DNA of 64,000 nucleotides from Dysidea avara (taxonomy: Eukaryota > Porifera > Demospongiae > Dictyoceratida > Dysideidae), in assembly GCF_963678975.1 (NCBI RefSeq), contig NC_089277.1, positions 26,176,672-26,240,671 of the forward strand, read 5' to 3'. Below the pieces are notes generated by a model. It was given only the letters and a program-made list of their open reading frames with translations, did not search any database and was not told where the DNA came from. Within the stretch, counting starts at the first letter, position 1, and each line of letters starts with the position of its first letter. The translations under genes and the position numbers were made by a program. Shown here one piece after another: positions 16,862 through 62,939 of the stretch.

Positions 16862-17582
16862 CGGTGTTATTATTATTATTATAATTGATTGTTGTGCAGA
16901 CCTCAAAAGAGTATGGTGCACAAAAAAGGGTACAATTGCTACTGTCAATTACAAAAGAAAAACAAACTTATATAATTATACAATATTTACTATACACAAG
17001 ACCATTATATACACATTGATAAATTATTAAACAGTTACTAGTCAAGCTAGGCTGTGCTTGAATTGGTTAATCTCTGTTAAATCAATCATGTGTTGGGGTA
17101 AGGAATTCCAAATATTGATTGCAGAGGGGAAAAAAGAAAATTTATAACAGTCAATTCTAGTCATTGGGGTTAAAAATCTCTTATCATGGCCTCTGGTGTG
17201 ATGTAGGTTAGGATTAGGAAAAAGGAAATCATCAGCATTAATGTTGATTTGGTGAGATATAATTTTAAATAACATTGTAGCCTTCTGTTCGTTTCTGCAT
17301 CTGGCTAAGGTGGGCCAATTAAGGTTAGATAGCATTTCAGTGATGCTGGAATATCTAGAATAGCTGTTAATTACAAACCGTGCTGCTCGTCTTTGGACAT
17401 TTTCTATGGGTTGAAGTGATGGCCATTGTAGATCTGCTAACATAGATGTAACACTACTGTTGTATTGGTAATCTGACTTGACCCAACAAGCAGCACGTCG
17501 TTGTACCATTTCTATACTTTGTATCTCCTTCTGCAAGTAGGGGTCCCATACTGCCGATCCATACTCCAACAGTGGTCTCACT
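16862..17582 (-). mobile_element. LINE C-terminal fragment with TAA-type tail
   Basis: Minus frame 17581-17042 reads MRPLLEYGSAVWDPY through RTNCYKFSFFPSAINIWNSL-type ending (here IDCYKFSFFPSAINIWNSL) to HSLA and a stop; the 3' tail on plus is (TTA)n at 16862-16883. An oddity is an internal repeat: the MVQRRAACWVKSDY...MLADLQWPSL block is followed at once by NVQRRAARFVINSY...MLSNLNWPTL. So either the ancestor duplicated this 40-residue block or two related LINEs were joined. No catalytic palm remains. Confidence 0.75.
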
Positions 17583-17583
17583 A

Positions 17584-18785
17584 TACTGCTCAGCTACTAT
17601 TGACAATCAATGACTTTGCCGAAAGCTTAAATAGCAATGATCAAACTGATGTCGTACTACTAGATTTTTCAAAGGCATTCGACAAAGTGTCCCATCAACA
17701 CCTGTTCCATAAACTCCACCATTACGGTATCCGAGGTAATTTACTTGACTGGATTAAAGATTTTGTACTGCAGAGATCTCAGTGTGTGGTGGTTGAAGGT
17801 CAACAGAGCAACTTAACAGCAGTTACCTCTGGTGTTCCTCAAGGTACTGTCCTTGCTCCACTTTTGTTTCTCTGTTTCATAAATGATTTACCAAATAACA
17901 TATCATCCAAAATCAAGTTATACGCTGACGATGTGTTACTTTATGCCACCATTCGCACAGAACAGGACTGCAATCAGTTGCAGAAGGATTTAGATGCACT
18001 GGGAAAATGGGCAGACGATTGGAAAATGGTGTTTAACCCACAAATATGCGAATTTCTTAGGATAGCTAACAAGAAACACACATACTAGCTCAGTATAATA
18101 AACCAATCAAGAAAGTCAACCATGCCAAATACTTGGGTGTAACAATAAGCCAAAATCTATCCTGGTCAGAACATATAAAACAAATAACTTCCAAGGCTAA
18201 CAGAACTAAAGGTTCACAATTGTACAACAACAATTAAAGATAGGTTGTACAAAGCAATGGTAAGCCAATTATAGAGTATGCAGCTGTTGTCTGGGCACCT
18301 CATACTAAGATGGATATTGATATGATTGAGAGAACACAACGACAAGCAGCTAGATTTGTGACCAGCAACTACTCCCGTCACGCTAGTGTCACGCAAATGC
18401 TTACAGACCTTAATTGGCCTACACTTGCGCGATGCAGAGATGAACTGAAAGCCATAATGATGTTTAAAATAATTAACCACCTTGTTGAATTGACATCCCA
18501 GTAAATCCATTTCTGACACCCATATCCACTGTACATAGTACCAGAGGTCATAATATGAGATTTATGCAACCAATGACACGGATCGATTCTTATATGTACT
18601 CCTTTTTCCCTTCGGCAATCAAAATCTGGAATGATCTACCCCAAAATGTGATTGACTCCAATGATATTGATCAGTTCAAACAAAAACTAGCAATTATTTA
18701 TATACTTGTATGTATGTTGTGACCTGTGTACTATACTCTAATAGAGGCCTGCACAGTATTACCAATAATAATAATAATAATAATA
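17584..18785 (+). mobile_element. LINE reverse transcriptase fragment, CR1/L2-like, frameshifted
   Basis: The frame starting near 17584 contains DVVLLDFSKAFDKVSHQHLF, TSGVPQGTVLAPLLFLCFIN and KLYADDVLLYA, the reverse-transcriptase palm with the YADD catalytic box. After about 18088 it shifts frame: KYLGVTISQNLSWSEHIKQI, YAAVVWAPHTKMDIDMIERT, NWPTLARCRDELKAI, then MRFMQPMTRIDSYMYSFFPS. It ends in an (AAT)n tail at 18763-18785. It meets the minus-strand LINE head to head at 17583. There is no endonuclease domain, so it is 5'-truncated. Confidence 0.85.
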
Positions 18786-32600: not shown

Positions 32601-32779
32601 CATGTGTCCAACAAAGTTTGGGCCGGACCAATTTTAGTTAGGCCGGACCAATTTCGGATGCCAAAAATGGTCCGGCCGGACTAAACTTGGTCAACCAAAT
32701 TTGGTCCGGCCGGACCAGTTTTGGTATCCAAAATCGGTCCGGCCGGACCGATTTTACCCGGACCGATATTTCCGTGACA
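29665..32779. mobile_element. Inserted foldback element II (GGCC duplication)
   Basis: Tips TGTAACG and (minus) TGTCACGG; flanked by GGCC at 29661-29664 and 32780-32783, so one copy restores the host frame. Arms of about 300 bp are inverted copies, the outer parts being tandem palindromic units around GGTCCGGCCGGACC spaced by AAAATTGG-like words. The interior (about 30130-31320) is a diverged tandem duplication of about 350-700 bp units that each contain a small hairpin (TAGGAGATGATA ... TATCATCTCCTA). It also holds a 28-bp motif copy at 30085-30113. No protein-coding trace recognised. Confidence 0.78.
30085..30113 (+). repeat. 28-bp motif inside element II
   Basis: AAGATCGAGATACTCTAATA then GAGCAGTCA, the closest to consensus in the window. 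Confidence 0.8.
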
Positions 32780-33673
32780 GGCCAATATGGAGGATATCCC
32801 AGATGATTTGATACTGAATTGGGACCACACAGCTATAAACATTGTGCCTGTGTCTTCATGGACGATGAACCAGAAAGGAGAAAAGCGAGTTGAAATAGTT
32901 GGCTTGGATGATAAACAGCAGATCACTGCTGTCCTTTGTGGAGCACTAAGTGGTGAGATTTTGCAATTTCAATTAATCTACCAAGGGAAAACGTCTGCAT
33001 GCTTGCCTAAAGTAAAGCTTCCTAAAGATTGGCTACTGAGCTTCACACCAAACCATTGGTCCAATGAAGACAAAACTGAGGAGTATATTCATTCAGTACT
33101 CTTACCTTACTTGGAGAAGAAAAGAGCAGAATTAGGGCTTTCTAACACTTTTCCGGCTGTTGTGTTGTTTGATGCATTTAAAGGTCAGACAACCGAAAGA
33201 ATTTATCAATTGCTAGAAGCTAACAATGTGTACACAATAAGTGTACCAGCAAATTGTACCGATAAGCTTCAGCCAATGGACTTAAGCGTCAACAAAACTC
33301 TGAAAGATTTCATGAAGAAGGAATTTAATGAATGGTATTCCTCGGTAGTGTACGAGACACTTGATGCAGAAAATCCAATACCAGCTGATTTACGAATGGC
33401 AGTGATGAAACCTCTTGGTGCTCGATGGCTATTAAAGGCTTACAGACATTTAATGGTCAACAAAGAAATCATCCAGAATGGATTCAAGGCTGCAGGAATA
33501 GCAGATGCCCTGAAGGAACAGCGATCACTGTAGTAGCAACTGTCAAGAACTTGTGTAACAATTGTGTTAATTGCATTAAAATAATTATTTGATTAGTGAA
33601 GTTGTACAGCTAAATCACAATATTTTATGGTATATACATTAAATCACATTCTAGTATCAGTTGTATATGTAGT

Positions 33674-34297
33674 TCACTTCTCAGGCTTGACCCGGCGAGA
33701 TGGGAAGGGTGACATTTTTCCTTGACTCAGGCAGTTGATTAAATGTGACCTCATCTGTGATTGGTGAAAGTAAGCCTTTTCTGGATTACGTTTCTTTGCC
33801 AAATATACTGCATATGCAATTGCAAATAGGCCACAGTCACTGAAACCTTGTTGTTTCTGTACTGGTACTACATGAACCTCCTTAACACCAAAAAGCTGTT
33901 GTATGATCTTCAGGCTTTTTTCATCTACAGAATCGTAGAGGGAATCATAGATGCTTACTGCATTAGGTTTTGACAATATTGTGCTGGTAGTTATCCAATG
34001 ATTACCCCTGACATGGACAATTTGCAGCTCATTGACTCGGGGAGTTAAACTTGCCTGCAGTAAAGTGGATTGCAAACCTTTAATTGAAAACTGGCACTTT
34101 AGTATGGTTTGGGCGTAGTTAATGTGCTTGTCATTTAGTTGAAAACCACCAGCAATTTCATCTCTGTCTGAAAGAGTAAGAGACACTCTTCCAAATTTCA
34201 CCCATGTTGAACTGGAGACTAGTACAGATGCACTGCTTTGATGCTTCACGGAATCTTTGCTACCACTAGTACTTTCAACTGGATCTAGTAAAACCAT
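33674..34297 (-). CDS. Ulp1-like (C48) cysteine protease domain of the pogo element (207 aa)
   Basis: The frame follows the HIRAN part after one stop. Motifs in order: LNDKHINYAQTILKCQF (about 54-70, the substrate-groove helix typical of Ulp1-like proteases in mobile elements), GNHW (His100), IYDSLYDS (Asp118), QKQQGFSDCG (Gln149/150, Cys155). The His-Asp-Gln-Cys set is complete, so the domain could be active. The Ulp1/SENP family removes SUMO or related modifiers, and related proteases are carried by several DNA transposon classes and by plants' MULEs. Here it is convergent with the transposase, whose stop is 140 bp away. The protein ends SRRVKPEK with a basic tail. What it cuts cannot be told from the sequence. 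Confidence 0.82.
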   Translation of the reverse strand: MVLLDPVESTSGSKDSVKHQSSASVLVSSSTWVKFGRVSLTLSDRDEIAGGFQLNDKHINYAQTILKCQFSIKGLQSTLLQASLTPRVNELQIVHVRGNHWITTSTILSKPNAVSIYDSLYDSVDEKSLKIIQQLFGVKEVHVVPVQKQQGFSDCGLFAIAYAVYLAKKRNPEKAYFHQSQMRSHLINCLSQGKMSPFPSRRVKPEK

Positions 34298-34300
34298 AGA

Positions 34301-34996
34301 TTAACAGGCCTCAGCATCATATTTCTGACTCTCTTTTGAGGTAGAATATCTCTTGTCAGCAACGTCTGAGGGCTCATCTTGACATGGCGGTTCACATTCT
34401 AACACTTTCATACTTGTCGTGGGATCAGTGATGTCTCTTATAGATTCCTGGGTCATGTCTTCTCCTTGTGTGTCTGGTAGAGTGTATTTTACTTCCACAG
34501 TAAACTTTGCACCCTCAGGTTGCTCTGGATTACTACTAGAGCTACTGCTCACATCACTGCCACCAGTACCAGCACCACAGATAACTGGCACAGACACAGA
34601 AAGCAGCACTGGCCTTTTCATATCAACTAGTATAGACTTCGCTTTATTCACCATCACCTTACAACCAGCAAACTTCATTACCCATGGAATCTCCATGCCA
34701 CCTTGTGGCAAGTCATGAGAGTACCGCCTCGAACCTGTAACTGTGCCAGTTATCGTTGCTCCTGTCTTCCCCAGAAAAACGTAACAAACTGCAGAAATTT
34801 TCCTAGGCACGTGTCCCACTACAGTGGTCCCCTTACATACCGCAACAGCAAAAGGATCGTGGTGGTTTCGTACATCACGGCGACAGTACAGCACTTCTCC
34901 TATAAAACTGGACCAAATATCCTTGTAAACGTGATATCCTCTAATCGTAGAATCTATCGCAAAGGATTCTACTTCAGACACGAGCTCAGACGCCAT
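34301..34996 (-). CDS. HIRAN-domain protein of the pogo element (231 aa as read)
   Basis: Starts at ATG 34996, about 150 bp inside the right terminal repeat. Residues about 11-111 match the HIRAN domain (FAIDSTIRGYHVYKDIW, DPFAVAVCKGTTVVGHVPRK, TGTVTGSRRYSHDLPQGGME). HIRAN is a small beta-barrel known from HLTF/Rad5 where it binds 3' single-stranded DNA ends. A Ser-rich acidic linker follows (about 152-231). The frame stops at TAA 34301-34303, and the same frame reopens two codons later as the Ulp1 domain, so the ancestral product was probably one HIRAN-Ulp1 protein. A role in handling DNA ends during transposition is a guess from the domain. Alternative: two separate proteins by reinitiation at ATG 34297. 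Confidence 0.8.
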   Translation of the reverse strand: MASELVSEVESFAIDSTIRGYHVYKDIWSSFIGEVLYCRRDVRNHHDPFAVAVCKGTTVVGHVPRKISAVCYVFLGKTGATITGTVTGSRRYSHDLPQGGMEIPWVMKFAGCKVMVNKAKSILVDMKRPVLLSVSVPVICGAGTGGSDVSSSSSSNPEQPEGAKFTVEVKYTLPDTQGEDMTQESIRDITDPTTSMKVLECEPPCQDEPSDVADKRYSTSKESQKYDAEAC

Positions 34997-35148
34997 TGCA
35001 CGTGTAGCATACCACGATTTTAATCAAGACCACGTGTTTTGATGATTGGAAGGGTTCGCAGATATTATAATCGCAGATATTACTGCTGGACGAAAAGCTT
35101 GCTTCTTCGCAGAAATTGCGCCTCGCACATTATACCCGCTATACGGTA

Positions 35149-43169: not shown

Positions 43170-44223
43170 TCAAATTTTAACACTTCTTCTGGCTCTTTCT
43201 TGGTATGAACTTCTGTTATGGATGTAGGTATTGTTAACATCATCATCTACAAAACTATCTGTTTGTGGTTGTGCAAGTGCAGCAAGAATGGAAGCAAGGA
43301 CATTCTCCATACAACTGGCAGCTGGATCCCACTGATCTGGTTTTAGGAGACCAATACACACTAGTCCATCTGACTGTCCCACATTAAGATGATAAGGTAT
43401 GGGTTTTTGGAACTTGATCATCTATGATCACAAGAATTATTCAGAACAATTTAAATGTCCACTAGCATAGTTGCAGGTGTAACTTGTTTCATTACTTTTA
43501 TTTCTATCATCCCTGCCTAAATGTAAAATTTCTAATTTTTCTATTCATTAGTTTTTTAAACTTTGTTGCAATGGAATAATTCATTACTGGTGAACCATTG
43601 AATACCATATCAAAAGAATACGTTAATATTGTGCAGCTGAATGTGTGCCCTGATTATCAATTAATGAGGTAGTCATTCCACTTTGTTTTTGGTTATGTTC
43701 CACCCATTATACAGCATTACAAACAAAGAACAATTCAAAAAGTGCCTCTGCGATCAATCCATGGTAATTAAAGCACTGAAGCCATAATGTGCTATTACAA
43801 ATCAGCACCTATGTGGTAGTGGGAAAATGGCACAGCACAAAGGAGGACATAGTTAAGTCCTTGATGCATGTATGCATGGTAACTACAATGTACTGCAGGT
43901 GACGTCAAATAGTGAAGATATCAAGCACAAAGTCTTATCCAAAGAATTATACTTGGTTGAAGGTATCTATTAGTTAATTGGTTGGGCAGTCTAATAATTA
44001 CATCTGGGAGCTTAGTTTTGTTCTTTTTGAGTGCTGCAACTTCAGTTTTAAAATCTCAGCAAATCCCTTGCAGCCATGTATGGTTGACTACTTTGAAATA
44101 CTGATTCAGGTGTAACTAACACAATACTTACAGTATATAATAGAGTTTACCTTTGGTGGTTCAAAAGGATACCTTTCAGTTTGTTGAATTAAGGAAAGTC
44201 GCCAATAACAACAGCACCTCAGC

Positions 44224-44261
<38 letters not shown>

Positions 44262-47200
44262 CAATTATTACATCATTAAGGATATGAGAAATAGATTTCC
44301 AGTTTGAAGTTGGCACCTGTTAATATAATTGTAAATTGAAAAAACATACTGTCATAGGTAATAATTATAGCTAATATAGCTGCTCAACCAGATATATGTG
44401 GCCTTTAAAAATTTTTGATATCAAAATTAAAGGTGGCTACTAATAAATGTATGGTTGGAATGATGTTAATGCTATATGTGACCGGGCCTGCGAAAACAGG
44501 GCACGTTAGCACACACTACACTTCGTCACTTTACAGATCATATTTCAGTACTGGCATAGATTATTTGTATTCTGTAACTTGCATCGTAAAACCAATTAAA
44601 TGCTTACTAAGAGCTATAAATTGCATTGCCATAGCATAATGTTACAGAAAGTTACGAGTGACGAAAGTTTGAAAAAGTAGGTAAAAATCATGTGTCCACA
44701 TGCCCAATTTTTGCAGGCCCAGTCACTATCTATACCAGTTTCAGTTATATAATATTATACTACACCTAAAGTAAGCATGCTGTGTGTAACACATCACTTT
44801 TTAACAACTAACCATGCATGTGATTAAAATAATGAACACTAGGCCACATAAACTTAATTATTAGTTACTCATCCTCCTGCACTCAAAATACCAGTGCGGG
44901 AGGGTGGATTTTTATTTTACTTTTTACCAACTAAATAGGTGGTGGCTTAGTGCAGCCATCCAGCACCTTTTTTTACTGGTGGCTTAGTGCAGCCATCCAG
45001 CACCTTTTAAAGTTGGTACCTTGCTGGAGCAGTCTAAGATAACTACATTCTGGGTCATTTTAGCTAGCTAATTCAGCTATCTAGTTAGTAAAAAGTAAAA
45101 TAAAAATCCACCTTCCCGCACTGGTATTTTGAGTGCAGCCATCCAGCATCTTTTAAAGTTGGTACCGTCCAGTGGTGCATAAAATCCCTGATGAGGTACG
45201 AAAAACGGTGGAGTGGGCGGGGATGAGAAACTAAGAATTAGGTTTATGTGGCCCTATATTGGTGCAGCGTTGAAATGACAAACTGAGAGTCACTGAAAAT
45301 TTTGTCTGGTCTAACGTGATAGTAGGCTACCATATAGCTACAGTTAGCATGGCCATTAATTTATAAAATATTAACAATTATAAGTGTGGTCAGAAAGCTA
45401 TATTATCTGTTAATATATTATGCACAGTGCATGGGCAGATCCAGAGGTGTTCAAAAGGTTCCATGGAACCCCCCTTTTGGAAGAGATCAGTAATTCGAGA
45501 TACTCTAATAGAACAGTAACAGTATATTCTTCAAAGGAGCAGTGTAGCAAGCTACGTATGTAGTTATAAATAAGGAGATATAATTGGTGGAGGGCAGCTA
45601 TTGTCAGCATGTATATATATATAAGCTTAGTTACCATTTTTTGGTCTTCGACTTAAGGCCATGGCATCACCAAACTATCAAGTTACAATTCCAGAGTGGA
45701 ACTACCCTTTTAGAAAGTTTGGATCCGCCTCTACAGTGGATATTGTCTGGAAGTCACTTGGACAAAACTACTTGAAAGGGTACTGCCGAACAAAACTGTA
45801 GCTAACCGTAAAATCCTGAGCTCGCGGTAGCTAGTTATAAGCTATTTCAGTCGCGAAACGAGAGCGTGATGACCACTAGCTATGCTATACTGGGCTGCCA
45901 GCCGCCTATACCTCCCTTGCTTTATAATTGTAACTGAAGAAGAAGAATGCTCAACCAAAGTTGAACGCCGGCGCATTTAAATCTGTGCCCTAACTATAGC
46001 TACTTTCATGTGTAGCTAGGTTGGCTGCCAACGCTTGGACCGGCTACCCCGGGATAGTTGCTCCAGCCATCCCTAACTAGCCTCGAACTCACTAAAAACT
46101 TGTCTTCATACAACTAGTTTACATACTTGATACTGGAGTTATGATGGATGACTGCTGTACGAATAGCAAAAAGTCCGACTGCCGGACGAATCTGACTGTC
46201 CATGCACACGCATAATAAAATTATATACCCCTGCTGATTAAAAATTAATACTGACTAGTGTATCATAACACTTACCCTCGTATAATGACCCCTTCGGTGC
46301 AGGTATGTTAGCATTCCACACAAGTAAGTCTGAATCACATTGTAGATAAACTGAAATCCCACTTGCTTTGAGTACTGGTGATTTCTGGATGTTTTTAAGT
46401 TCTTTTGTCAGCCTATACACAATTTATGTACATAAGAATAATTATAACATTATACACGTATATTATTATTATTATTATTATTTGTTAATTGGTATAAGGA
46501 AGACAAAGTCTTATAAAAACCAATCTCAAGTACATCTAAATAAAATCAAACCGGCGGTCATACAAAAATACATCTAATTTAGTCTTAAAGATCAGTACAT
46601 TAGGTGCAGATACAATTTCATGGGGTAAGGTGTTCCAATCATTGACGATTCTCTGTGAAAGGTGTTATAACTATGTATGGGTATACACGTCTTGCAAACT
46701 GTACCTATATACTTGCACTTGCAGCTACATGACTCCTGTAGCTATAGTTATACTTGTACGCATAATCACATTCAGACCAGTTTAGAGAACGATTGTGCCG
46801 ATCTTGTCAACGCATGCTCTACCGCAACTAGCTATATAGCTAGCTGGAAAATGCTTATTATTATTATTATAAACTAACTATATATAGCTGTATGAGTGCG
46901 TAGAGCTAATTCAATATTATAATTCAATATTCAACATCGGGAAATTAGCCATTATACACACGTAGCTAGCTACCTACCTAACCTTTAGTAGGGTCCGCAA
47001 TCCGAAAAATCAACTTCTACAAATCAATCCCCCTACCATTGTGGGATGTTCATTGTAGTATCCTATTGCTTGATCCACCATGAAACCGGAGGCACGGTTG
47101 TTGTCTTCACAGAAATATTGTTTTCAGTATCTCGCAAGATGCAAAATTTATTTTTAAAATTTCGTGCTCCACACAAAGTACCGGATGAAATTTGCTACTT

Positions 47201-48698
47201 AGCCAAATCGTATCCAGAGTTGTTGTAGTTGAAAAGTACGCACAGAAATAAGTAAATGATTTGCCTGGTGCGCGGGACAGGGTTGCTTTCTTTGAAAAAA
47301 CAGACAAAGAGATACGAAGTTTCGAATTCAAATTGCCCTATCACCCAGGGCAAGAGAAACCAACTCTTCCTCATAGTATTTCGATACGGTTGGGTGCATA
47401 GTCTGTCTATGCTGTTAGTTTGGAAAAGATCCGAGACTTCTCACCATCTGGGTGACGAGCGTCAAAAATTTCTGCAGCATCAAAGAATTGTGTCGCGCTT
47501 TCTAGCCATTTCCAGCGCTTCTGCAGCCACAACAATCATCAATTATAAACTAAAACTATGGCAAAAGATGTCCCTGAACGTTTGGTAGCAGCGGTTGTCA
47601 ATTGTTATTTCATCCACGGCTTCCACGCCTCGTTCTAAGCTATGCATCAAGGGAGGCAGCAAAATCGTCCAAATTTGACTTCACCTCTAAAGCTCCACAG
47701 CAAATTCAAATCTTCACTAGATCACTCTACATCACCATTATGCTGCAAAACATCCAAAAACAAACCGAAAAAAGCACAAAATTTTTCATTTTTGATTCGA
47801 GCTGGGTGGAGCTCCTGGTGAGCTGCTGGTATACTGCATCATATGAAATTACAGAAACACCAACTACTACTACAACCAAACGTTTTGATCCATCATTTAT
47901 CATCATTCTAAACAAAATTAAGTGACCAGTGTGGCATAAGAAGTACTGGAAAGCACTTTGGTACCATTGAGAGAATCCCTTGAAATGGCGCATGAAAATT
48001 TTGACGTTCTTCACCCAGATGGTGAGAAGTCTCAGATCCTTTCCAGACTAACATCATAGACAGACTATGCATCCAACCTTATCACATCACTATGAGGAAG
48101 AGTTGGCTTTTCTTGTCTTGGCTGGTAGGGCAGTTTGAATTCGAAAATTTGTGTTTCGTTTTCTGCTTTTTGGGAGAAAGCAACCCTGTGCCGGGAACCC
48201 AGTGAATCATTTGCTTATTACTGTGCGTACTTTTTAACTACATTAACTCTAGATAATATCTAGCTAAGCAGCAAGTTCTATCCTGTTCTTTGTGTGGAGC
48301 ACGAAATTTAAAAAATAATTTTTGCATCTCACGAAATACTAAAATCGATATTTCTGTGAAGACAACAATCGTGCCTCCGGTTTCATGGTGGATCTAGCAA
48401 TGGGATACCACAATGAACATCCCACAATGGTAGGGGGTTCGATTTGTAAAAGTTGATTTTTCGGATTGCGGACCCTACCTTTAGCTGTTGTCTATGGTTT
48501 CATACTAAAAGCATCACCGCACATAGCTATATTTTACCATGTTAGCTATACCTTTAATCATATAACTCCAAAAGTTTCTTTTACCAGCGTGTGAGCTGTC
48601 GTACTACCTACTCTGAGTGTAAATGTATGTGTGCATTAACTTTGGGTTGCTCTACCTATACTGTACTTAACTATATGTTACCTCATCTTTGCTGCCAT
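43170..48698 (-). CDS. UBE2L3-like ubiquitin-conjugating enzyme (E2), four exons
   Basis: E2s carry ubiquitin on a Cys and pass it to an E3. Exon 1 (48698-48682) is MAAKMR with a GTAACA donor; exon 2 (46412-46276) reads LTKELKNIQKSPVLKASGIS ... LLVWNANIPAPKGSLYEG with donor GTAAGT; exon 3 (44217-44151) ends QQTERYPFEPPK; exon 4 (43421-43170) starts MIKFQKPIPYHLNV and has the catalytic Cys in GLVCIGLL, then DQWDPA, and stops after RRSVKI. The short MAA(x)R start, the YPFEPPK block and CxxLLK..QWDPA fit UBE2L3 (UbcH7) best; the usual HPN is HLN. Exon 3 from its only AG acceptor is 67 nt, which breaks the frame; 56 nt would give 153 residues, close to UBE2L3's 154. So there is a non-standard acceptor, a sequence error or a broken allele. 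Divergent from the RBR gene. Confidence 0.78.
43690..43935 (+). repeat. Dispersed repeat family R1, copy 3, degraded
   Basis: CAAAGAACAATTCAAAAAGT, GCACAAAGGAGGACATAG and TACTGCAGGTGACGTCAAAT follow the word order of copies 1 and 2. In E2 intron 3. Confidence 0.6.
44225..44256. repeat. AT microsatellite
   Basis: A pure (AT)n run of about 32 bp directly upstream (on minus) of E2 exon 3, replacing the usual pyrimidine tract, which may weaken that acceptor. Confidence 0.85.
44477..44727. mobile_element. MITE of the TGTGACC family (copy c)
   Basis: TGTGACCGGGCCTGCGAAAA on the left and TTTTTGCAGGCCCAGTCACT on the right, in E2 intron 2. Confidence 0.65.
44877..45137. mobile_element. Hairpin MITE with ends of about 50 bp
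   Basis: GCACTCAAAATACCAGTGCG continues for about 50 bp and returns inverted at 45088-45137 with few mismatches. Direct copies of GTGCAGCCATCCAGCA lie inside at about 44951 and 44987 and just outside at 45133, so the element sits in, or duplicated, that flank. Confidence 0.7.
45170..46275. other. E2 intron 2 remainder; nothing else seen
   Basis: AT-rich with one 28-bp motif copy at 45494-45519. No additional exon recognised. Confidence 0.4.
45494..45519 (+). repeat. 28-bp motif, damaged
   Basis: TTCGAGATACTCTAATAGAA then CAGTAA in E2 intron 2. Confidence 0.7.
46989..48477. mobile_element. Long-TIR foldback transposon, 7-bp duplication (copy 1)
   Basis: Tips TAGGGTCCGCAATCCGAAAA and (minus) TAGGGTCCGCAATCCGAAAA. 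Perfect 7-bp direct repeat CCTTTAG at 46982-46988 and 48478-48484. Arms of about 490 bp flank a unique middle of about 500 bp that has no recognised domain. It lies wholly within E2 intron 1. It shares its tip and duplication length with 50670-55226. Long arms plus a 7-bp duplication recall Galileo-like elements of the P superfamily, but no THAP domain or P-type transposase is present. Confidence 0.85.
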
Positions 48699-48981
48699 TC
48701 TCAGGAAGGAAACTTCAATATGCGATTGAAGAAATACAGCTCAAGTCGAAAGTGAAATGTGTCCACGTAGCTGTAGCTAGTTAAAATGAATGCACTAGAT
48801 GCTGTGTTATTGTTGCATGCACATGCTCCCATGCAGTATGTGCATGTACCTACTACATGCAGAAATTAGCTAAATAAATACAACATTTGATGAGGTGTTT
48901 AGTTATAGTTAGTTCTAAGTTAATTCATGTCAGTTTGCTCTTAAAATTGGTTGGTGTAGTGAAAACTGTAGGGAACTAATC
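48699..48981. promoter_or_regulatory. Shared divergent promoter region of the E2 and RBR genes
   Basis: 283 bp separate ATG 48698 (minus, E2) and ATG 48982 (plus, UBL-RBR). It must hold at least part of both 5' leaders and promoters unless untranslated exons lie elsewhere. It is AT-rich, with TAAATAAATA near 48871 as a possible plus-strand TATA-like element and a GAAANNGAAA site at 48748. No mobile element has entered this interval, although both adjoining introns are full of them; that fits selection on the interval. Confidence 0.6.
48748..48757 (+). promoter_or_regulatory. ISRE/IRF-like site GAAAGTGAAA
   Basis: Exact match to GAAANNGAAA, the core bound by interferon regulatory factors in vertebrates, 50 bp upstream of the E2 start codon. 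The chance of one such match in 283 bp of AT-rich DNA is of the order of 1-2%, so this is a lead, not proof. Confidence 0.35.
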
Positions 48982-51900
48982 ATGTCTAACTTCTCTATCT
49001 TTGTGTATGCCACTGGTAGAAAAACTGATAAAATTTCAGTGGCCGTGAGATCGGTAAGTCACATGTAACGCTTGCACGCATGCTTTGTCTAGCAAGTTCG
49101 TTATGTACAAGATGCTACAATATATGTGACCAGATCTGCGAAAACCCGACATAATGGCGCAAGCCTAAATTTTCAGTCTAAGCCATTGATTTGCAATGGG
49201 TAGAATATTTTCGTAAGCGAAAAAATTCGTAAGATTTTTAAACGCTTTATTCTTTGTGAAGGAAGGGCCCTATGGTAAAAAACTGGATATCATCTTATTC
49301 GCCTATTCAAGAGGAATTCAAAAAGCTTTGATTGGTTGCAGTAGACTAAAGAATACGTAAGTTATGGGCGTTTGTTTACGTCACGTCGAAACGATCGTAC
49401 GCGATCAATTTTTCTTCACTGATTTCGTCTCTGTATGCAGTGATGAATGGCAATAGAAGAAAAAAAACTTATCCAGTAATGGACTCCCCTATTCATGGCG
49501 AGCACAATGGTGCAAGTTGCAACTCTGTACTGCAAATACTTGCATCAACGTTGAAACCGGGTCACTACTGCTGACCCGGATGACCCACTGACCCGGATGT
49601 GACCCAGATTAATTAAAGCCGAGACGTGTTTCGGCTAGTCTCCGGCGAGCGAACGAGTCTACATTTTGAGCGTTCGATTCGTGTTGAGTAAATATTGCAA
49701 CTTCAGCCTAGCTGTAGGTTGAAGACCAAAAAAAAATTTATTCACTGACAATAGCTATCCCTCACCATAGATATCCTCAGTTTCGTGCTACATACTGCAC
49801 TTACTAACAAATAGGCGTGGCTGAGCATATGTTGGTAATGCGATAAGTGGGTGTGGCTCACGAAAGAGCTACGCGATAGCGTTTATAAGTTCCACGTCGT
49901 CAAACGAACAATTTCCTTTCTCACGTGATCCAATCCGGGTCAGACCCGGATAAATTGTAAACCGCGTCAGACTCGGATGACCCGGAGAAAATGTGACCCG
50001 GATGACCCGACCAGGTTTCAACGCTGACTCGCATGCTGTACAAATCGATCTTTCTGTTGTTGCTAGCTACTTTGTAGGGCTGTAACTCCAAAGGTTGTTA
50101 CCATATGAAGCTGAAACTTGGCCAGAGCATACACTTGGTTAAGTACATCAATAATAAAGAATTTTTTATTTTATTTTTAATTTTTAATAAAGAATTTGAA
50201 AAATGCGCCATTATGTCGGGTTTTCGCAGATCCGGTCACATATGTAGTTATAGCTACTATATTCTATCTAGCCAGCTGTACATGACAGTAGATATACAGA
50301 TGATTGCAGAATTTTTGAAAATTTTCTTTCCGCGTACCGTAAATAACTAATCCGTGGACTGGAAAACTATTAGTGTGACGCCAGATCAGCCGGACCGAGG
50401 GAAAAGATTAGCGAGGTTTAATTGCTGTTGAATCCAATGCAAGGACAACAAAGTTTACTCGGAAACACTGATACCGGCGGTACGACATGTTTTTTTCAAG
50501 AATTCTGCAATCGACTGTAGCTATGTCAGTATAAATGTGGGCCGGCATGCATGCATATGTGTCACTGTGTGTGTGTGTCGAACAAAAAAAAAGTGGCTAG
50601 ATCATCGGCCTGGTAATCGAAAAGTTCCAGGTACAACAACTGCACCAGCCGTAACACTAAATGCATAGGTAGGGTCCGCAACGCGAAAAATCGATATCCT
50701 CCGATCAACTACCTGACTATTGTCATGTGTTAGGCTAAGTGTAACTTAAATAACACCAACGTGGCAGCCAAGTTTGTCACTTTATTCTGGTAGAAAACGA
50801 TACAACTAAAATCACGTGATTTTTCGTTGCAGCAATTCATAGGGTTCTTCGTATGCCACGATATTCACTCTCAACATTGTTCAAGTAGTCTATCATCAAC
50901 TCGAAGTATTGGTGGTTTGATTTTATTGGTCAGTTTCTGGTGGCAGCACGATCTGTGTAGCTTTTTGGCAACAGGCAAAATGTTTCTTCCTCTGGAGCAC
51001 AGACAGGACAAGCAGAACAGCAACTGCGCCGTGGGTCAGCAATGACCAGTACTAGGTAAAGTACCTGCATGTGGAGTATGGTTATAATTGAAGCTTGTTA
51101 GCCATCTGGCTGAGCCATCTATATGCTGGAATTCGGCCATAATGACGTGATTTTTACAAACAAATACCAGAATGGTTAACACATCAGTGAGACAGTCTCC
51201 AACAGCAAGGATACGAAGCTTATAAACACCAAACAATACGGCTATCTCGCCCAGTAAATGCATAGAGCAATCCAATGCATAAAAATTTAATAGGCACTCA
51301 CGTGATCGATATTCAAATCTCGGAAAATACAACATAATCTATTTCAATGACCTTACAATCACTTGGAATCAAGTGACAATCAGTTATTGTGCATTAGGTT
51401 CAGCATCTCGATTAGCCCAGCAGTCTGAGTCTCTATCTATGATGTCATCACAGCATAAAACACACCTGACCACGCCTGAGTGAACAATTAGCACAAATAT
51501 TTACAAAAGGAGTACACTGCATGGTTCCTATTCAGAAATGAAAGTGATTTCATGGGTATTTCCACAATTTGAATTTCGATCACGTGAGTGCCTATTTCGG
51601 GGTGGGATAAAACCGGGACGGGGACAATAGGGGTAAAACCGGGACGGAGACGGCCAACAAGAGTAAAACCGGGACGGGGACAGCCAAGGACATAGGGACT
51701 ACTGTTAGAGTAAGCGATTTTCTCTGCCGTAAAGGGATTGAATCTTGGATTGGATATAATTTATGTATGGCAAAGAAAAAATATCAAGTAGCCTTTGAGG
51801 TAATTTCATCTTTAAACTGCCACTTAAGGTTTGAGAGATTTTGACATCCTTAGCTAGTGCATGGCTTAGCTAAGAAAAAATCAATTAGCTTTCTTGGGTA

Positions 51901-54900
51901 ACCTTTGAACTACCATATAAGGTTAGAGAGATTTTGACGTCCTCAGCTAGCTATACAAACCCAGACCTCACACTGAAACACTCTTAAGTGGTTTTTCAAA
52001 TGGATTATGAAGTGGAAGATCAGTCAAATCATTTCGTTCCCAGATTGTAATCATCGTCTTTGTGCATACATGGTCCCCTGGGAAGCCTGCACAGTATACT
52101 TTCTAGCGATTTGAATGTAGCTCTGGGCTAGAGCCAAGTTGTAGATCACTTGGAGAATTCTGACACAGTGTATAAGGAGTACATCAACACTTTGGATGCT
52201 AATCCTCCCATCCAACCTAAAGGATCGAGGGATAGTGTTTCTTTATGATCTAGGCTTAGATGAAGCACAGTGGGAAGTCAAGAAAAAGAAGCTAAGGCAA
52301 GTGGAATTATTTAGTTCAATCCGCCGTGCATGCTGAAAATTAGTTTACTCATATGCTAGGCAATAGTTCATAATATTGTAGTGTGGGAGAGTGCAACAGA
52401 AATACTTCCATGGAACACACTGTGTTAAGTTACACCAGTCCTGTGTCTGTTCAAAGAATAAAGACTTGACCTCATCAGCACCAATTAATGCTAATCAAAC
52501 ATTCTCTATCACCAGTGGAGGTAGTTTTCTGTTTATATCCACAGGTATTTTCTGCATACAATGAGCCTGCCAGAATGGAGCTGAACTATCATGCTGAATT
52601 TCTGTCAACATATTAGCTCAGTTAGCTCTTGCTTTTCACACATCAGTCCAGTGCTTTAATGCTGATTATGCAGATATCATTACAGCAGTGCTGTTAATTG
52701 TAACTTGTATGGATGAACACCTAGACCTGGCCAATATTGAATTGGACAATGAAGCTGCTACAAAAATGCCACATACGATTTCCTTTCTTTGAAAGAAGCC
52801 AATGATAAAATGTTTGATCTTTCTTCCTCCTCAGAGGATCTTTATCAGTCTGAGATGGATGAAGTTAAACTTCATGCTTGACTGCTTGGATTGATGGATC
52901 ATAATTATTTCCCATCCCAGGCCATGTCATGGGTTATTGTGGAACTGAATTTCCCAGCATGAAAAATACACAATATATCATCACTGATTGAATTTATGCT
53001 ACTGCCTGTACAGCAAACAGTGTAAGGGATCAGTATTATGAATGCAAAGGTAAATCAAAAGTTTTGTCATGCCTGTTTACCAATAAAAGTCCATGGGTAA
53101 TTCTGAGTGATCAGCATAAAATCAACCGGCCTCAAAGAAATCAATAACTTGTCATTGTCACTTATCATTATGATCATTGTTATTAGCTTTGTGGTGCACC
53201 ATCAATACCAGAGGACATTGTGTCTCTATCAAGATATTGTGGCATGGACGTCCCTACTATTATGATGGTATGAAGTCAACAAAACAACAGTGATTTGTAA
53301 AATATTCCCCTAACATAGCCACAAAGTTGAAAATTTCAACTGGTTCATATGTTAATCAGTTACCTTTTGTAGAGAATAACTATGTTTTGCATGCCACACA
53401 TTGCTTTAAAGCTACATCTATGATTTTTCTTAGCATTTGTTTTATCATACTGTAGATACTGAACTGCATTTTAAATTCATGATTTTGGCATCTTGTATAG
53501 CTAATTCTATATTTTCAGTGTTTATCATGTCATCATTTGTCTTATCACACTGTGAAAAAGGTGGGATATAAGATGGTATTTCCAGTGGCTTATTGAATAC
53601 AAATAAGCCTTAATATAAACCCTGTATTATACTCATGTTATACTTTAGTATAATGCATACTATACTATTACATATATGGTTTCAGTTTATTTACCACATT
53701 ACCTGAAATAGCTTATATCGAATATAATGCCCACACTATACCATCACATATATGGTTTCAGTATGTTTAACACATTAACTAAAGCCTTACAAGAGATCGT
53801 TAGTATAATACAGGTTATATCAAGCTTTTTTGTATTCAATAAGCCACTGGAAATACCATCTTATATCCCTCTTTTTTCACAGTGTCAGTATAGCTAGCTA
53901 GTGACAATTCTTATATATTACTAAGTATAACTATATTATAGCTCCTACATGCTGGAAGTATATCAGCCGCCCTGGCCACTGAGCCATACTTAATTTAAAC
54001 ATCATCACGAATGTGATGATGAAATGAAATTAAGTGTATAATATGTATATATATTTGCAGAATCTTGGACAGCGAGTAGAGCTATAAAATAATGCAATGT
54101 GCACAAAATCAACATGCAAAATAAAATTTACTTGAACATTCATGTGTATGAATCCTCTGTCAACATGACCACATGCATATCTGACCAACTTGGGTCAGCT
54201 GTGGGCATGGCAAGGAAAGCAAATACACTAAGTATAAAACCAAAAATTACAGCTATAGCTACCATACAGACTTTAAAAAAAAAATTTGTTTAGTTATTAA
54301 GGCTTTACAGCCCGAGTCTGTAGGACACCTGGTCTTACAGCCTATTTAAAGCTTCAATTCATTGACTTCATGATCACGATAATGTTTATACCACAGCGGA
54401 ATATAATTCCGTGCCAATTTTGCTGTCCAGCTTGAAGACTAATCGGCTCTTCTTTCTAATTATACATCGCCAACTCGATCGCCAGTATTTATAATGGGAA
54501 GCTAGGGATATAACTTCGGTGATACTTGCTGTCCCCGTCCCGGTTTTACTCCTGTTGGTCGTCCCTGTCTCCGTCCCGGTTTCACCCTTATTTTCCCTGT
54601 CCCCGTCCCGGTTTTACCCCAGCCCCTATTTCATGTATTGAATTGCTCTATGCATTTACAGGGCGAGATAGCCGTATTGTTAGTTGTTTATAAGCACCGT
54701 ATCCTTACTGTTGGAGACTTTCTCACTGATGTATCAACCATTCTGGTATTTGTTTGTAAAAATCGCGTCATTTTGGCCGAATTCCAGCATATAGATGGCT
54801 CAGCCAGATGGCTAACAAGCTTCAATTATAACTATACTCCGCATGCAGGTACTTTACCTAGTACTGGTCATTGCTGGCCCACGGCGCAGTTGCTGTTCTG

Positions 54901-57320
54901 CTTGTCCTGTCTGTGCTCCAGAGGAAGAAATATTTTGCCTGTCGCCAAAACGTTGCACAGATCGTGTTGCCACCAGAAACTGACCAATAAAATCAAACCA
55001 CCAATACTTGAACAATGTTGAGAGTGAATATCGTGGCATCCGAAGAACCCTACGAACTGCTGCAACGAAAAATCACGTGAATTTAATACATTTGTATCGT
55101 TTTCTACCAGAAGAAATTGACAAACTTGGCTGCTATGCTGGTATTATTAAGTTACGCTTAGCCTAATACATGACAATAGTTAGGCAGTCGATTGGAGGGT
55201 ATCGATTTTTCGCGTTGCGGACTCTAGCATAGGTATCCAATGGCGGATCCAGGAGGATAGGGCATTTGGGGCAAATCCCCCCCCTTGTAGAGTAGCCATG
55301 GCTAGCTACTTCTTTTGATTAAAATATTCAGCTTTATGTCAAGTCGTAATCAACTTATAAATCATGAAAATATGCTCAGTTCACTAGCATTTAGTATTAC
55401 AAATTCACGTAAAACCAAGCGAATCAGAAAACCTAGCTGAAATTGTCAGCAGCACCCTTCGTACATACTAAGCGCCTCTAAAAATAATTATCGTGTTGCT
55501 GCTTTTAAAGACTCTTAAGACTTCACAACCACTTGCAAAGGGCAAAATGGCAACAATCAACAGTGAGACACTACTAAGAGGTGATTATTTGCTGTTTCAA
55601 AAATGTAGCAACTAACAAGATTTGGCTCTCCCCAACCACCAAATACTTAATCTGTTTGTGTCCCTCCCCTTGCCAACTCCTGCATCCGCCCCTGGCAATG
55701 GCGGATCCAGGATGGGGCATTTGGGGCAAATGCCCCCCCCCCCCCCCCCCCCCCCACCTTGTGGAGGAACCATACTTCTGTACTAAACTTTATGTCAGGC
55801 CAAGATCAGCTTATTAATTCACGAAAATATGCATATTTTACTAGCATTTATTACAAATTCACCTAAAACCAAAGCAGATCAATGTCAAACTAGCTATGAA
55901 ATGGTCACCCAGCACCTTCGTGCGTACTAAGCACCTCTAAAATAATTATCGTTTTACTGTTGTTTAAGACATTCAGAGCCTTTTAAACACTTTTAAGACT
56001 TCACAACCACCTGCAAAGGCCAAAATATTAAAAATTAACAGTATGATACTACTAAGCAGTGTATTATTTGCTGCTTCAAAAATGCAGCAACTAACAAGAG
56101 AATCTGGGTCTCCCCAACCACCTACAACTTGGCCTGTTTATGCCCCTTCCCTTGCCAGGTCCTGGATCCGCCCCTGTGGTGCACAAGTATCCCAGTACTG
56201 GTTCGCTGGGTGGCAATATAGTTGTGTCTTGCATGGTTTACTTGTGTTTGTGTGTGTGTGTGTGTGCGTGTGTGTGTGTGTCTGTGCGTGTGTGATACTA
56301 GCTAGACTACAGTATGTGTATGTGCCCATGCACGCATGTGCATATGTGTGAGTGTGAGTTAATGTAACAGAATACTGCTATATCTACTGTAATACAAATC
56401 TTTTACAGACAACAAAGGTAAAGGAATTCTACAAACAAGTATGCGAAAGACTGAATGTTCCCCAGAATATTACTACAATATTCTTTGCAACTACCATTTT
56501 GCCACAAACAAGTAATGACACCTTAGACGACTTTTCAATTGAGCAAAACAGTACGTTGACCCTGTGCATTCAAGTAAGTGGAGGCTCTATTCAGGAACAG
56601 AGAAATATACATCCTTCAGTGAAAAGGTCAAAAGGAAAATGTATATTCACATTTGAAGATGATGACAGTGTATCTATAAGGGTAGAAATGTCGTGTGGAC
56701 ACCCAGTCACTCCTATTGGATTAGCTGAGTATGTTGACAATGAAATCAAAATGGGAAAAACGGTATTACAATGTCCAAGTTGTAAAAAAGAATGGAGAAT
56801 TCCTGACATCATAAAAAGAGGTCTAACACTGTCAGAAAGAGAAGCACTAGAAGTAGGTCTGGCAAAAAACAGCTTTGATCAAAAAGATTTTCGTGAATGC
56901 CCAAGGTGTTGTGTTGCAATTAAAAAGACAGATACTGGGAATAAAATGAACTGCAATTTCTGTAAAAGTAAGGGATATTCATATACATTTTGCTGGACCT
57001 GTAAAAATGATTGGAAAAGCACTGGAACATCATACTATGTTTGTGGAAATGACACCTGTGCTATGAATACTGAACTGCAGAAAGTACTAGAATCATGCGA
57101 AACTAAAGTAATTGATAATATCAAAGTTCCAAAAGTCAGGGCTTGTCCCAGTTGCAACAAAGCCATAGAACACCGACATGGTTGCAGGCGTATGGTTTGT
57201 CCTGATTGCAAAATACAGTTCTGTCATATTTGCCTGCAGACATCAAATGCTGATCCAAAGCGTTTTCCGTGTTATAGCACACCATGCAAATCAGCTGCTG
57301 CTCGACAGATATTACAGTAA
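48982..57320 (+). CDS. Ubiquitin-like domain + RBR E3 ubiquitin ligase, 327 aa, two exons
   Basis: Exon 1 (48982-49053) encodes MSNFSIFVYATGRKTDKISV and four more residues, with donor GTAAGT; exon 2 (56409-57320) follows acceptor TTTTACAG in phase 0. Residues 1-83 form a ubiquitin-like fold (IFVYATGRK near the start, TLDDFSIEQNSTLTLCIQVS at the end) closing with Gly82-Gly83. RING1 is reduced: SCGH (119-122) and CPSC (146-149), lacking a normal first Cys pair. The IBR has Cys188/191, 206/209, 219/222 and CGNDTC (236-241). RING2 is ACPSCNKAIEHRHGCRRMVC with the probable catalytic Cys283, then CPDC and CHIC, and ends near Cys317. RBR ligases take ubiquitin from the E2 onto the RING2 Cys before the substrate. 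The SCGH-type RING1 resembles animal RBR proteins of unknown role. The 7.4-kb intron is packed with elements. Confidence 0.85.
49125..50240. mobile_element. MITE of the TGTGACC family (copy d, 1.1 kb)
   Basis: Ends TGTGACCAGATCTGCGAAAA and (minus) TGTGACCGGATCTGCGAAAA, both continuing CCCGACATAATGGCGC, with TATA-like flanks. Contains a nested element at 49551-50021. In the RBR intron. Confidence 0.8.
49551..50021. mobile_element. Nested element with GACCCGGATG sub-repeats
   Basis: Inverted tips GTTGAAACCGGGTCA and (minus) GTTGAAACCTGGTCG. Both sides carry several GACCCGGATGACCC words. A third example of GC-rich sub-terminal repeats in the window. Confidence 0.65.
50585..50650 (+). mobile_element. 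tRNA-like SINE scrap
   Basis: GTGGCTAGATCATCGGCCTG (A-box-like) followed by AAAAGTTCCAGGTACAA (B-box-like). Confidence 0.35.
51293..51592. mobile_element. TA-flanked MITE nested in a foldback arm
   Basis: Ends GGCACTCACGTGATCGATAT and (minus) GGCACTCACGTGATCGAAAT, then TCAAAT, with TA outside on both. Its absence from the right arm at the matching place shows it arrived after the foldback formed. Confidence 0.75.
53548..53884. mobile_element. CACTG-type MITE with 3-bp duplication TCA
   Basis: Inverted ends of about 56 bp starting CACTGTGAAAAAGGTGGGAT and (minus) CACTGTGAAAAAAGAGGGAT; TCA flanks both sides (53545-53547, 53885-53887). CACTA/EnSpm-like tip and duplication. Interior has direct ACATATATGGTTTCAGT words. 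Confidence 0.8.
54295..54345 (-). repeat. Dispersed 3'-end fragment, second copy
   Basis: Complement of the 7985-8075 block (TAGGACACCTGGTCTTACAG on plus). Confidence 0.5.
55238..55694. mobile_element. hAT-like MITE, first of a tandem pair
   Basis: Ends CAATGGCGGATCCAGGA and (minus) CAGGGGCGGATGCAGGA. Body with ACTAAGCGCCTCTAAAAATA shared with the next copy. No target duplication found between the two. Confidence 0.65.
55696..56176. mobile_element. hAT-like MITE, second of a tandem pair
   Basis: Ends CAATGGCGGATCCAGGA and (minus) CAGGGGCGGATCCAGGA. Contains a C run of about 24 bp near 55733-55755 and ACTAAGCACCTCTAAAATAA shared with the first copy. It ends 232 bp before the RBR exon 2 acceptor. 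Confidence 0.7.
56243..56300. repeat. TG microsatellite
   Basis: Interrupted GTGTGT run 100-160 bp upstream of RBR exon 2. Confidence 0.85.
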
Positions 57321-60110: not shown

Positions 60111-62299
60111 ACAATTACATGAACAAATAATTACAAGAGGTCAGGAATCCAGTCTCAGGGTTACCAAGTTATTACCAAAAAGTATGGAGCCCTGGAAATA
60201 CCAAAAAAATACACTACATACAAAACTAAACAATTATACATGGCTTCTCAACAGGTAAACAGATCAACTACATCCCAAGTAGTGGAAGCACGGGAGTTAA
60301 AGATCCTGTATGAACAGGGGATTGCAACACAAGCTGCTTGCTGAAGAATACAACGAATAGTATTCTTCGGTAGATGGCATACATCGCTTAGTTTAGAGAC
60401 GGTCTCTGGCATGAAATGGCCCAAACAGCCAACCGCAAATGTCACAAGATTAACTGAAAATCCAGCCTATTGAAGGTCAGTCAGTAATGAACCATAGCAA
60501 TCTTCTTTACGGTTCCTCGCAGCTAATAGGTGATATTCAGTATTAGTAACTACTAGAGTTCTAACAATGCGATAGAATCTGTGGAAACTACCACGAGATC
60601 AGGTCTGCTTAAAGTAGACGTAATATGAAGTGGAATAGTACTTGGGGGACTAACACTTTCCTGGAAGCCAGGAAGATCTGCATAAATCTTATAACATGGT
60701 GGTAAATCCTTCTTAAAGTTGCAAACAAGAACCTGCAGAACAGAGTCATGATGCCAACTGTATCTGCCTTGATCAAGTGCAATGGAACAACCAGTTAAAA
60801 TATGGTTAGTTGTTGGTTGAGTACAGTGACAAAGGGTACAAACTGGACGATTTTATTTCAGTGAGCCAGATTCATAGGTGTTGGTAAGGTGCCACAACCG
60901 GCACGCAATAAGAAAGAAAGTTGTTTTTCAGGTAAACCATACAATAATCTCTTCCACAAGGGACAATTTTGTTCTAGGGCAACTATATCCAAGAATTTAT
61001 TCTGTACAGTCAACAGTTCAAGAGTGGAATTCCAATAGCGAACATGAGAGGATCGTTACAAGCCTTGCTTTTAAAAGTAGAGGAATGGATGTTAGAAACT
61101 GGAGATTTAGCAGCAGAAAGAGCATCAAAAACAACATCTGGTGCATCCTGAAAGTCATTAGACAAGCGAGAATGCCACAATTCAACAATAATTTGGTCAA
61201 CAGAGCATTCAAAAGCCAGGATATAAGATAGCTTAGCAGATTCCTAGAGATGAGGAAAAAAGAAAGGTCTAAAACATCAGGATGAAAAGCAGTTCCTGGA
61301 GTGCAATTACAAGGTAAATTTAGACACTGTTTCACAAACCTCAGTGCAGGTGATTGAGCAGATTGAACGGATGACACTGTAAGCCTCTCCACAACAATAT
61401 GAAAGTGAAGTACAGATGTAACAAAGTTTTTAAGGATCCACACTTTGTATTCCCCTCTAATAGAACAGTTGTCAATATGCTGGAAATACAATAAGATTAA
61501 TTTTGTTGTTTGATGTTGTCAGAGGCCAGCTTACGAGTAGCAATGGGAGAAATACCAATTGTCTTGCCTATAAATTTCGTACAGTTAATACTACAGATAT
61601 TGATAGTACTGTATTACCAGTAGACTCTGAGAACTCTGTAGTAGGCACGACACGATGGTCATTAAAATGAAGGGATACGCATTTGGGAGGTTGAAACTCA
61701 AAGCAGATGTCAGCAGCTTTCAGCACTAAAGAAGTAAGAGCTTGTTGATGTAAGTCAACTTTACTAGAAATGACAGTGAAATCATGAGCAAAACCTTTTG
61801 CTTTGTGAACTTTGGAAGAACAAGTCTTTGGTTCAGCAGAAGCTGCCCTAACAGAAGCTGAAGGTTGGGTGTTAATTGGTTTATCAACTTGAAAGTTCTT
61901 ACGGTAACGATTAGCAAAACACCACTCAACAGTATGTAAATCCACTGACGGCTCTGTATCACCATTGTCATAATGTAAACTACAGGAACCATCACAATGA
62001 CAGGAGGTAACATTAGCTCTGTACCAACCAGCAGGAGAGTCTGTAGAAGAATCAGACCAAAAAACATAAATAAGTACACCAGGTGGAGGTAAATCAGTTG
62101 AATGGAGAGCAAATAACTGAGCAGAGTACCCACAATGTTCTGACTTTGAAAGGAAAACAACAATGGATTGATAGCTAGGTTAAACAAAAGGGGAGATAGT
62201 GGATCTCCCTGGAACACTCCCCTACTAATATGGAATATCGTTGTGTTCCAATCAGCTATGGAAACATAGGCACAGAGATGAGAATAGCAACTTATAATA

Positions 62300-62939
62300 T
62301 GTGACTGGATTTTGGAAAAACGATCCAAATCGCACATTAGAAGTTTCGAGATAAACGGTTTTAAAGAATTGAAGCCAGCATAACTCTCCAAGGATAGCAA
62401 GCACGCGTATGAAATTTACACAAAAGATGCACCAATCTGTTACCTTTCAAGCCGCTTCCAGTACTTGTAGCTGCTTGTACCGTTTCCCGCCAAATAAGAT
62501 AGAAAATCTGAGCAGTTGGAAGAGCGAAGTAGTATCACGAGTGCTCACAAAGGGGTGGAGGCTGGGGGGTGGCGGGGAGGGCAAAAGATAGGCCTCAAAA
62601 TGGAGGCAGACCACGATTGGAGTCCAGACACGAAATTACAGGGCTGTGCTGGCTCCTTAGTGGCTGATATGTACCAAAATCTAGAGAGAACACGTCTGGC
62701 CAACATTATAAGGCTGTCCACCAGTAAACCACTGATTCTTGCCAAGCCAGGTCCTTCACAAGGCCTGAAACCGCCATTTGGGCACTCCACACTACCCAGA
62801 AAAGACGTCTATTAATCGTGTAGTTTGAGTAGTGCTGAGGGTCAAAACTTGTAGTACGATAGTGTAGCCATCCACTGGTGGTGTTAGTTTGATTTTGCCT
62901 GATGTGCGATTTGGTTCGGTTCTGTAAAATCTGGTCACA
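62300..62939 (+). mobile_element. MITE of the TGTGACC family (copy f) inside the LINE
   Basis: TGTGACTGGATTTTGGAAAA at the left and TTCTGTAAAATCTGGTCACA at the right with TA-type flanks. It is the inverted sister of 21786-22391. It interrupts the LINE between palm blocks. Confidence 0.78.

Follow-up and report, generated by a model that had tools for sequence, protein, structure and literature searches.

Parkin is a UBL-RBR ubiquitin ligase with a RING0 and a full RING1. Its gene has been reported to lie head-to-head with PACRG, with the starts about 200 bp apart and a common bidirectional promoter (PMC5951884). We describe here a locus in which a UBL-RBR-like ligase also lies head-to-head with another gene; unlike parkin, whose partner is PACRG and not an E2, this ligase faces an E2 gene. 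Neither DTX3L nor BAL1 (PARP9) is an RBR ligase or an E2. DTX3L is likewise a ubiquitin ligase encoded head-to-head with another gene, in that case its own binding partner BAL1, from one promoter; unlike at our locus, experiments are reported to show both the binding and the use of one promoter (PMC8424196). TRIP12/FBXO36 has been presented as another divergent ubiquitin-system pair (PMC7697007). For an E2 and an E3 in head-to-head order, we found no published description in the open-licence literature searched. UbcH7 (UBE2L3) and HHARI (ARIH1) are described as a cognate E2 and RBR ligase (PMC5548887), and both ARIH1 and ARIH2 align with the middle zinc domain of our ligase.

In Amphimedon, 18,054 genes (45%) are reported to be able to use a common core promoter, and for 11,379 the distance between start sites is at most 1 kb (PMC4773876). 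Because close divergent pairs are common, as Amphimedon and parkin/PACRG illustrate, the pair described here may be ordinary neighbors. The rate of such pairs may be lower here, since this stretch lacks the compactness of the Amphimedon genome. We analyzed 64,000 nucleotides of Dysidea avara DNA (the window). Our main reading, to which we give a probability of roughly 0.55, is that the locus holds ordinary divergent ubiquitin-system neighbors, probably with one promoter region: a UBL-RBR-like E3 and an E2-derived gene that is decayed, frameshifted, or equipped with an exon that we did not recognize.

Arrangement of the locus

An earlier note on this DNA had proposed a head-to-head pair of an E2 and an E3. 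The Pfam domains and exon positions bear out this order and both broad protein classes. The domains, order, frames, and residues given below are read directly from the window, and the features are as follows:

48982 to 49053, plus strand: E3 exon 1, with the first 24 residues and the beginning of the UBL; donor TCG/GTAAGT, phase 0
49054 to 56408, plus strand: E3 intron 1, 7,355 bp, holding several inverted-repeat elements
56409 to 57320, plus strand: E3 exon 2, with the UBL remainder, half-RING1, IBR, RING2 (probable catalytic C283), and stop
48699 to 48981, no strand: interval between the two presumed start codons, 283 bp, a candidate shared promoter
48682 to 48698, minus strand: presumed E2 exon 1, 17 nt, MAAKM plus AG, donor GAG/GTAACA
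46276 to 46412, minus strand: E2 exon 2, which codes for the N-terminal portion of the UBC fold and ends in phase 1, donor AGG/GTAAGT
44151 to 44217, minus strand: E2 exon 3 as traced, ending ERYPFEPPK/gtaaac, in the wrong frame for exon 2 from the acceptor at 44217
43170 to 43421, minus strand: E2 exon 4, with HLN, the catalytic Cys (LVC), QWDPA, the C-terminal part, and stop

The divergent arrangement is real and the order is safe: if exon 1 of the E2 is set aside, E2 exon 2 (from 46412) and the E3 (start, 48982) still point away from each other. The two genes probably sit about 280 bases apart. The spacing of 283 bp that had been proposed agrees with positions 48699 to 48981, and it holds only if the 17-nt E2 exon 1 is right.

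Elsewhere in the window, two adjoining open reading frames (33674 to 35023, minus strand, and 32778 to 33533, plus strand) match a Ulp1-type C48 protease (2e-5) and a HIRAN domain (3.8e-7) and lie next to a DDE_1 transposase frame (7.6e-10); they are perhaps a mobile element carrying a SUMO-type protease. We also observed MULE/ZSWIM1-3 RNaseH-like frames at 548 to 1735 and 9587 to 9979 (plus strand; best matches, 9e-10 and 7.8e-17) and reverse transcriptase frames at 17477 to 18088 (plus strand; RVT_1, 4.2e-25) and 61726 to 62415 (minus strand; 1.7e-5, below the Pfam cutoff). Rfam scans (gathering threshold) and tRNA scans across the window gave no matches, and no further copies of the ligase, of E2 exons 1 plus 2, or of E2 exon 4 were found within it at E values up to 1.

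The ligase and its RING1

The plus-strand gene had been described as a UBL-RBR ligase in two exons with its start at 48982. We found that the exons, the start, the UBL, the IBR, and RING2 stand, but that RING1 has one zinc site of the two. Once the exons are joined, a single frame of 327 residues runs open from 48982 to the stop at 57320, with the acceptor ttttacag/ACA at 56409. Among 202 candidate first exons (ATG to GT, 24 to 150 nt, in phase 0, located from 42000 up to exon 2), exon 1 ranked first by UBL profile, at 23.3 bits compared with 21.5 for the next and 14.3 with no first exon. Its donor is in the top 0.57% of GTs within the window. Pfam matched the ligase to IBR (1.7e-7) and IBR_1 (1.7e-11). 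It also matched ubiquitin (1.5e-5; 25.1 bits, slightly below the cutoff of 25.4), in agreement with the claim that the ligase brings its own ubiquitin-like domain. An NCBIfam search returned no match for the ligase or for the E2.

HHARI RING1 has two zinc sites. The ligase retains C120, H122, C146, and C149, which by ligand pattern make up one site, and the other site is absent. The full two-zinc RING1 ligand pattern was not found in the ligase, and the RING1 stretches of ARIH1 and parkin pass the same pattern. Pfam found no RING1 in the ligase even when this stretch was queried alone, returning four weak matches below the cutoff (zinc-ribbon types and a DUF). In HHARI a loop is inserted between the last two zinc-binding Cys of RING1, and most RBRs are reported to have an insertion of 1 to 6 residues there (PMC5548887). 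In contrast, the corresponding Cys of the ligase read CPSC, without inserted residues.

We next to this found that RING2 fits its ligand pattern at residues 270 to 299, with C283, the probable catalytic Cys, at the expected place. A His two residues past the catalytic Cys is common but not universal in RBRs; RING2 of the ligase has none at this position and reads HGC-R-R. The best PDB alignments of the middle domain (residues 184 to 237) were those with ARIH1, at 29.2 bits, and ARIH2, at 27 bits. The alignment falls on ARIH1 residues 340 to 390, which we take to be its RING2, and the IBR label of the middle domain is therefore drawn solely from Pfam and domain order. AlphaFold2, run on E3 exon 2 minus its first residue and without an alignment, gave a mean pLDDT of 36.1 and a pTM of 0.22, and we left the model out of the argument.

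Judged by these residues, the ligase would act in an RBR-like manner in the last step, with its E2-docking end altered, and we refrain from classing it among the canonical RBRs. A half-RING1 UBL-RBR family exists in fish and invertebrates. When we compared the exon 2 part of the ligase with a bacterial and archaeal collection, 12 pattern matches were found, 1 of which passed tblastn; this one, in a Delongbacteria MAG (tblastn E value, 2e-5; 54% over query residues 254 to 288), was rejected because it has a stop in frame and runs antisense inside a 438-aa open reading frame. In a viral collection, none of 4 pattern matches to the ligase and none of 31 to E2 exon 4 was confirmed.

Family and reading frame of the E2

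Exon 4 of the E2 alone matched Pfam UQ_con at 5e-13 (49.3 bits), and exons 1 plus 2 matched it at 8.8e-4 (19.3 bits, below the cutoff of 27). With exon 3 in its own frame and the first residues omitted, the whole matched at 2.1e-25. The exon 4 match and a catalytic Cys with HxN (C86, H76, and N78) indicate a UBC fold. R6, K9, W95, P97, and A98 are also kept, and HPN reads HLN (P77 to L).

The E2 had been called UBE2L3-like, and our comparisons speak against this. We compared it with a panel of 13 human E2s and found identities of 21.8 to 32.0% (UBE2L3, 29.1%). With exons 1 plus 2 and 4, UBE2L3 ranked sixth of the 13 (37.6 bits), behind UBE2B (44.5), UBE2D2 (42.9), UBE2E1 (42.3), UBE2I (41.3), and UBE2K (40.3), with the other seven lower. 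It was again sixth with exon 4 alone (24.1 bits; UBE2K, 27.3). With exons 1 plus 2 alone, UBE2L6 was second (14.9 bits) and UBE2L3 level fourth (9.3), and a UBE2L-type sequence has no better argument in its favor than this ranking. Among the best 60 of 263 PDB matches, 5v0r (74.3 bits), 7xed (64), 4x57 (63.4), and UBE2D1 (61) scored above the best UBE2L3 chain (55).

Where UBE2L3 has the marker residues P88, K96, K100, and H119, the E2 has G, D, S, and S; the pairing with H119 is alignment-dependent. The specificity of UbcH7 for HHARI has been reported to be set by K96 (PMC5548887), and the E2 differs from UbcH7 in having Asp there. UBE2D has Asp at the P88 and H119 places, and the E2 does not. 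Since the incoming lysine has been reported to be oriented by D117 in UBE2D1 (PMC5095918), a UBE2L3-like, Cys-only habit of the E2 is possible. On these comparisons, the predicted E2 is a member of no assigned family.

The minus-strand gene had been traced in four exons from a start at 48698. E2 pieces are present in exon 2, the tail of exon 3, and exon 4, and exon 1 is plausible, but we found no single open frame as traced: the exons add up to 17 + 137 + 67 + 252 = 473 nt, which is not a multiple of 3. The strong GTAAGT donor at 46275 belongs to the top 0.18% of GTs when both strands of the window are counted. Spliced from it, exon 3 yields AVVIGDFP followed by TAA, which gives a 60-residue product without the catalytic Cys. 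The splice of exon 1 (48698) to 46412 is compatible with the sequence, and the frame breaks later, at exon 3. Exon 1 (MAAKM plus AG) is plausible but not unique: of 64 candidate 5' exons up to 52000, 3, counting the presumed exon, have a donor that equals or exceeds its donor in strength.

ERYPFEPPK, the nine residues at the end of 44217 to 44151, lies in a frame other than that of the exon 2 continuation and looks like genuine E2 sequence; none of 500 random peptides from the window reached its score. As E2 sequence YWRLSLIQQT is weak, with 63 of 500 random peptides scoring equally high. GAVVIGDFP, which the strong donor reads before the stop, was dropped as an E2 relic because 270 of 500 did so.

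Open chains numbered 2,814 (2,802 with one exon 3 and 12 skipping exon 3). YPFEPPK is held by 72 of them, none of which uses the donor at 46275; they use donors at 46319 and 46289, both of which shorten exon 2, or GTGTTA at 46271. The GTGTTA donor keeps the frame and exon 2, gives an open chain of 159 codons including the stop, and is of median strength, equalled or beaten by 50.59% of the GTs in the window. This chain scored 94.2 bits with a 6-member profile and 90.3 bits with a 13-member profile (read-through reference, 95.5 and 92.4). The first chain without YPFEPPK scored 91.9 and 85.1 bits, so that the lead among chains with one exon 3 was 2.3 and 5.2 bits. When one additional small exon was allowed, 262 chains were open, 150 of them using the strong donor. 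The best, with a 22-nt microexon at 44172 to 44151 and a small exon at 46233 to 46197, reached 103.1 bits, above the read-through at 92.4, but an unrelated choice of exons reached 101.9 bits, and we make no claim for either. As read here, the E2 gene is broken, is misread, or has an unrecognized exon.

The 473-nt total and the 60-residue product from the strong donor would fit a young pseudogene or a frameshifted allele next to a live E3, with the interval now serving the E3 alone, as would the change from HPN to HLN and the one-residue insertions around the active site. Exons 2 and 4, however, have no stop or frame break inside, and the donors of exons 2 and 3 are good; we regard this alternative as tentative. 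An otherwise normal E2 gene whose frame is interrupted by an assembly or sequencing error in exon 3 is unlikely: a TA microsatellite, a place prone to read errors, lies directly upstream of exon 3, but it falls outside the traced exon, and we saw no other sign of error.

Several facts count against our main reading of ordinary neighbors with a decayed, frameshifted, or incompletely recognized E2-derived gene. Among them are the repeat-free stretch around the interval, described below, and the lead of the open GTGTTA chain over the first chain without YPFEPPK. The E2 keeps eight residues (the five listed with H76, N78, and C86), more than expected of an old pseudogene. The chains with an extra small exon reach even higher scores, and the strong donor is open to them, so an intact gene with an unseen exon is possible.

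The shared interval and the case for a module

The 283-bp interval has a GC content of 36% and 3 CpG, with one ETS-like site and one inverted CCAAT. Simple patterns for TATA, GC box, Nrf-1, YY1, and CRE gave no match in it. Inverted repeats of at least 40 nt were found in both first introns (46988 to 48480, 49117 to 50248, and 50667 to 55226). They stop about 200 bp from one first exon (at 48480) and resume 63 bp from the other (at 49117), and none was found in 48481 to 49116. This repeat-free stretch is a hint that the interval was kept clear by selection, which favors two live genes. Coregulation of the E2 and E3 is plausible.

In the repeat elements of the introns, the arms measure 485 nt (86%), the end repeats 45 nt (93%), and the nested arms up to 381 nt (94%). 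Two direct copies, 81 to 83% alike and about 480 bp apart, lie shortly upstream of E3 exon 2 (55502 to 55694 and 55980 to 56176).

The pair had been proposed to form a built-in E2-E3 module. We found that this is not supported as claimed: the E2 is not of the UBE2L3 type, its frame is unclosed by the traced exons with the strong donor, and RING1 of the ligase is halved. With Asp at the K96 position, the argument from an RBR and its standard E2 loses its basis, and a dedicated module is a weak possibility. A working module would have both genes live and coregulated from the shared interval, with the odd E2 matched to the one-zinc RING1 and its frame opened by an unrecognized exon or a weak donor. 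Consistently with this, the GTGTTA donor at 46271 or an additional small exon opens the frame, the catalytic residues of the E2 are kept, the interval is clear of the repeats found in both introns, and other divergent ubiquitin-system pairs are known, such as DTX3L/BAL1 (PMC8424196) and TRIP12/FBXO36 (PMC7697007). In contrast, the GTGTTA donor is unremarkable and adjoins the far stronger one, no additional exon stands out, and the UBE2L3 marks are absent, and we consider such a module improbable. That an E2 without the UBE2L3 signature and a one-zinc RING1 ligase changed together into a self-contained unit, with one 283-bp promoter and a private ubiquitin relay apart from the RBR-UBE2L3 pairing, is very improbable.

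For our main reading, of ordinary divergent neighbors, we infer the shared promoter and the following catalysis. The plus-strand product would have a UBL, a one-zinc-site RING1, an IBR, and a RING2, and RING2 would accept ubiquitin in thioester linkage at C283 before handing it on. The minus-strand gene is E2-derived, and a complete product of it would hold ubiquitin on its Cys. That the traced exons and strong splice sites leave its frame unclosed would reflect a decayed or frameshifted copy or an unrecognized exon.

The least expected part of the locus is the half-RING1 ligase rather than the pairing. Were both genes live and their pairing conserved, the locus would offer a natural example of one switch controlling an E2 together with its ligase, and it would reveal how an RBR functions with a reduced RING1 and a non-UBE2L3 E2. 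Otherwise, the value of the locus would lie in its ligase, which combines a UBL, a half-RING1, an IBR, and a RING2 but lacks the usual catalytic His and would thereby test how much of the RBR machinery is needed.
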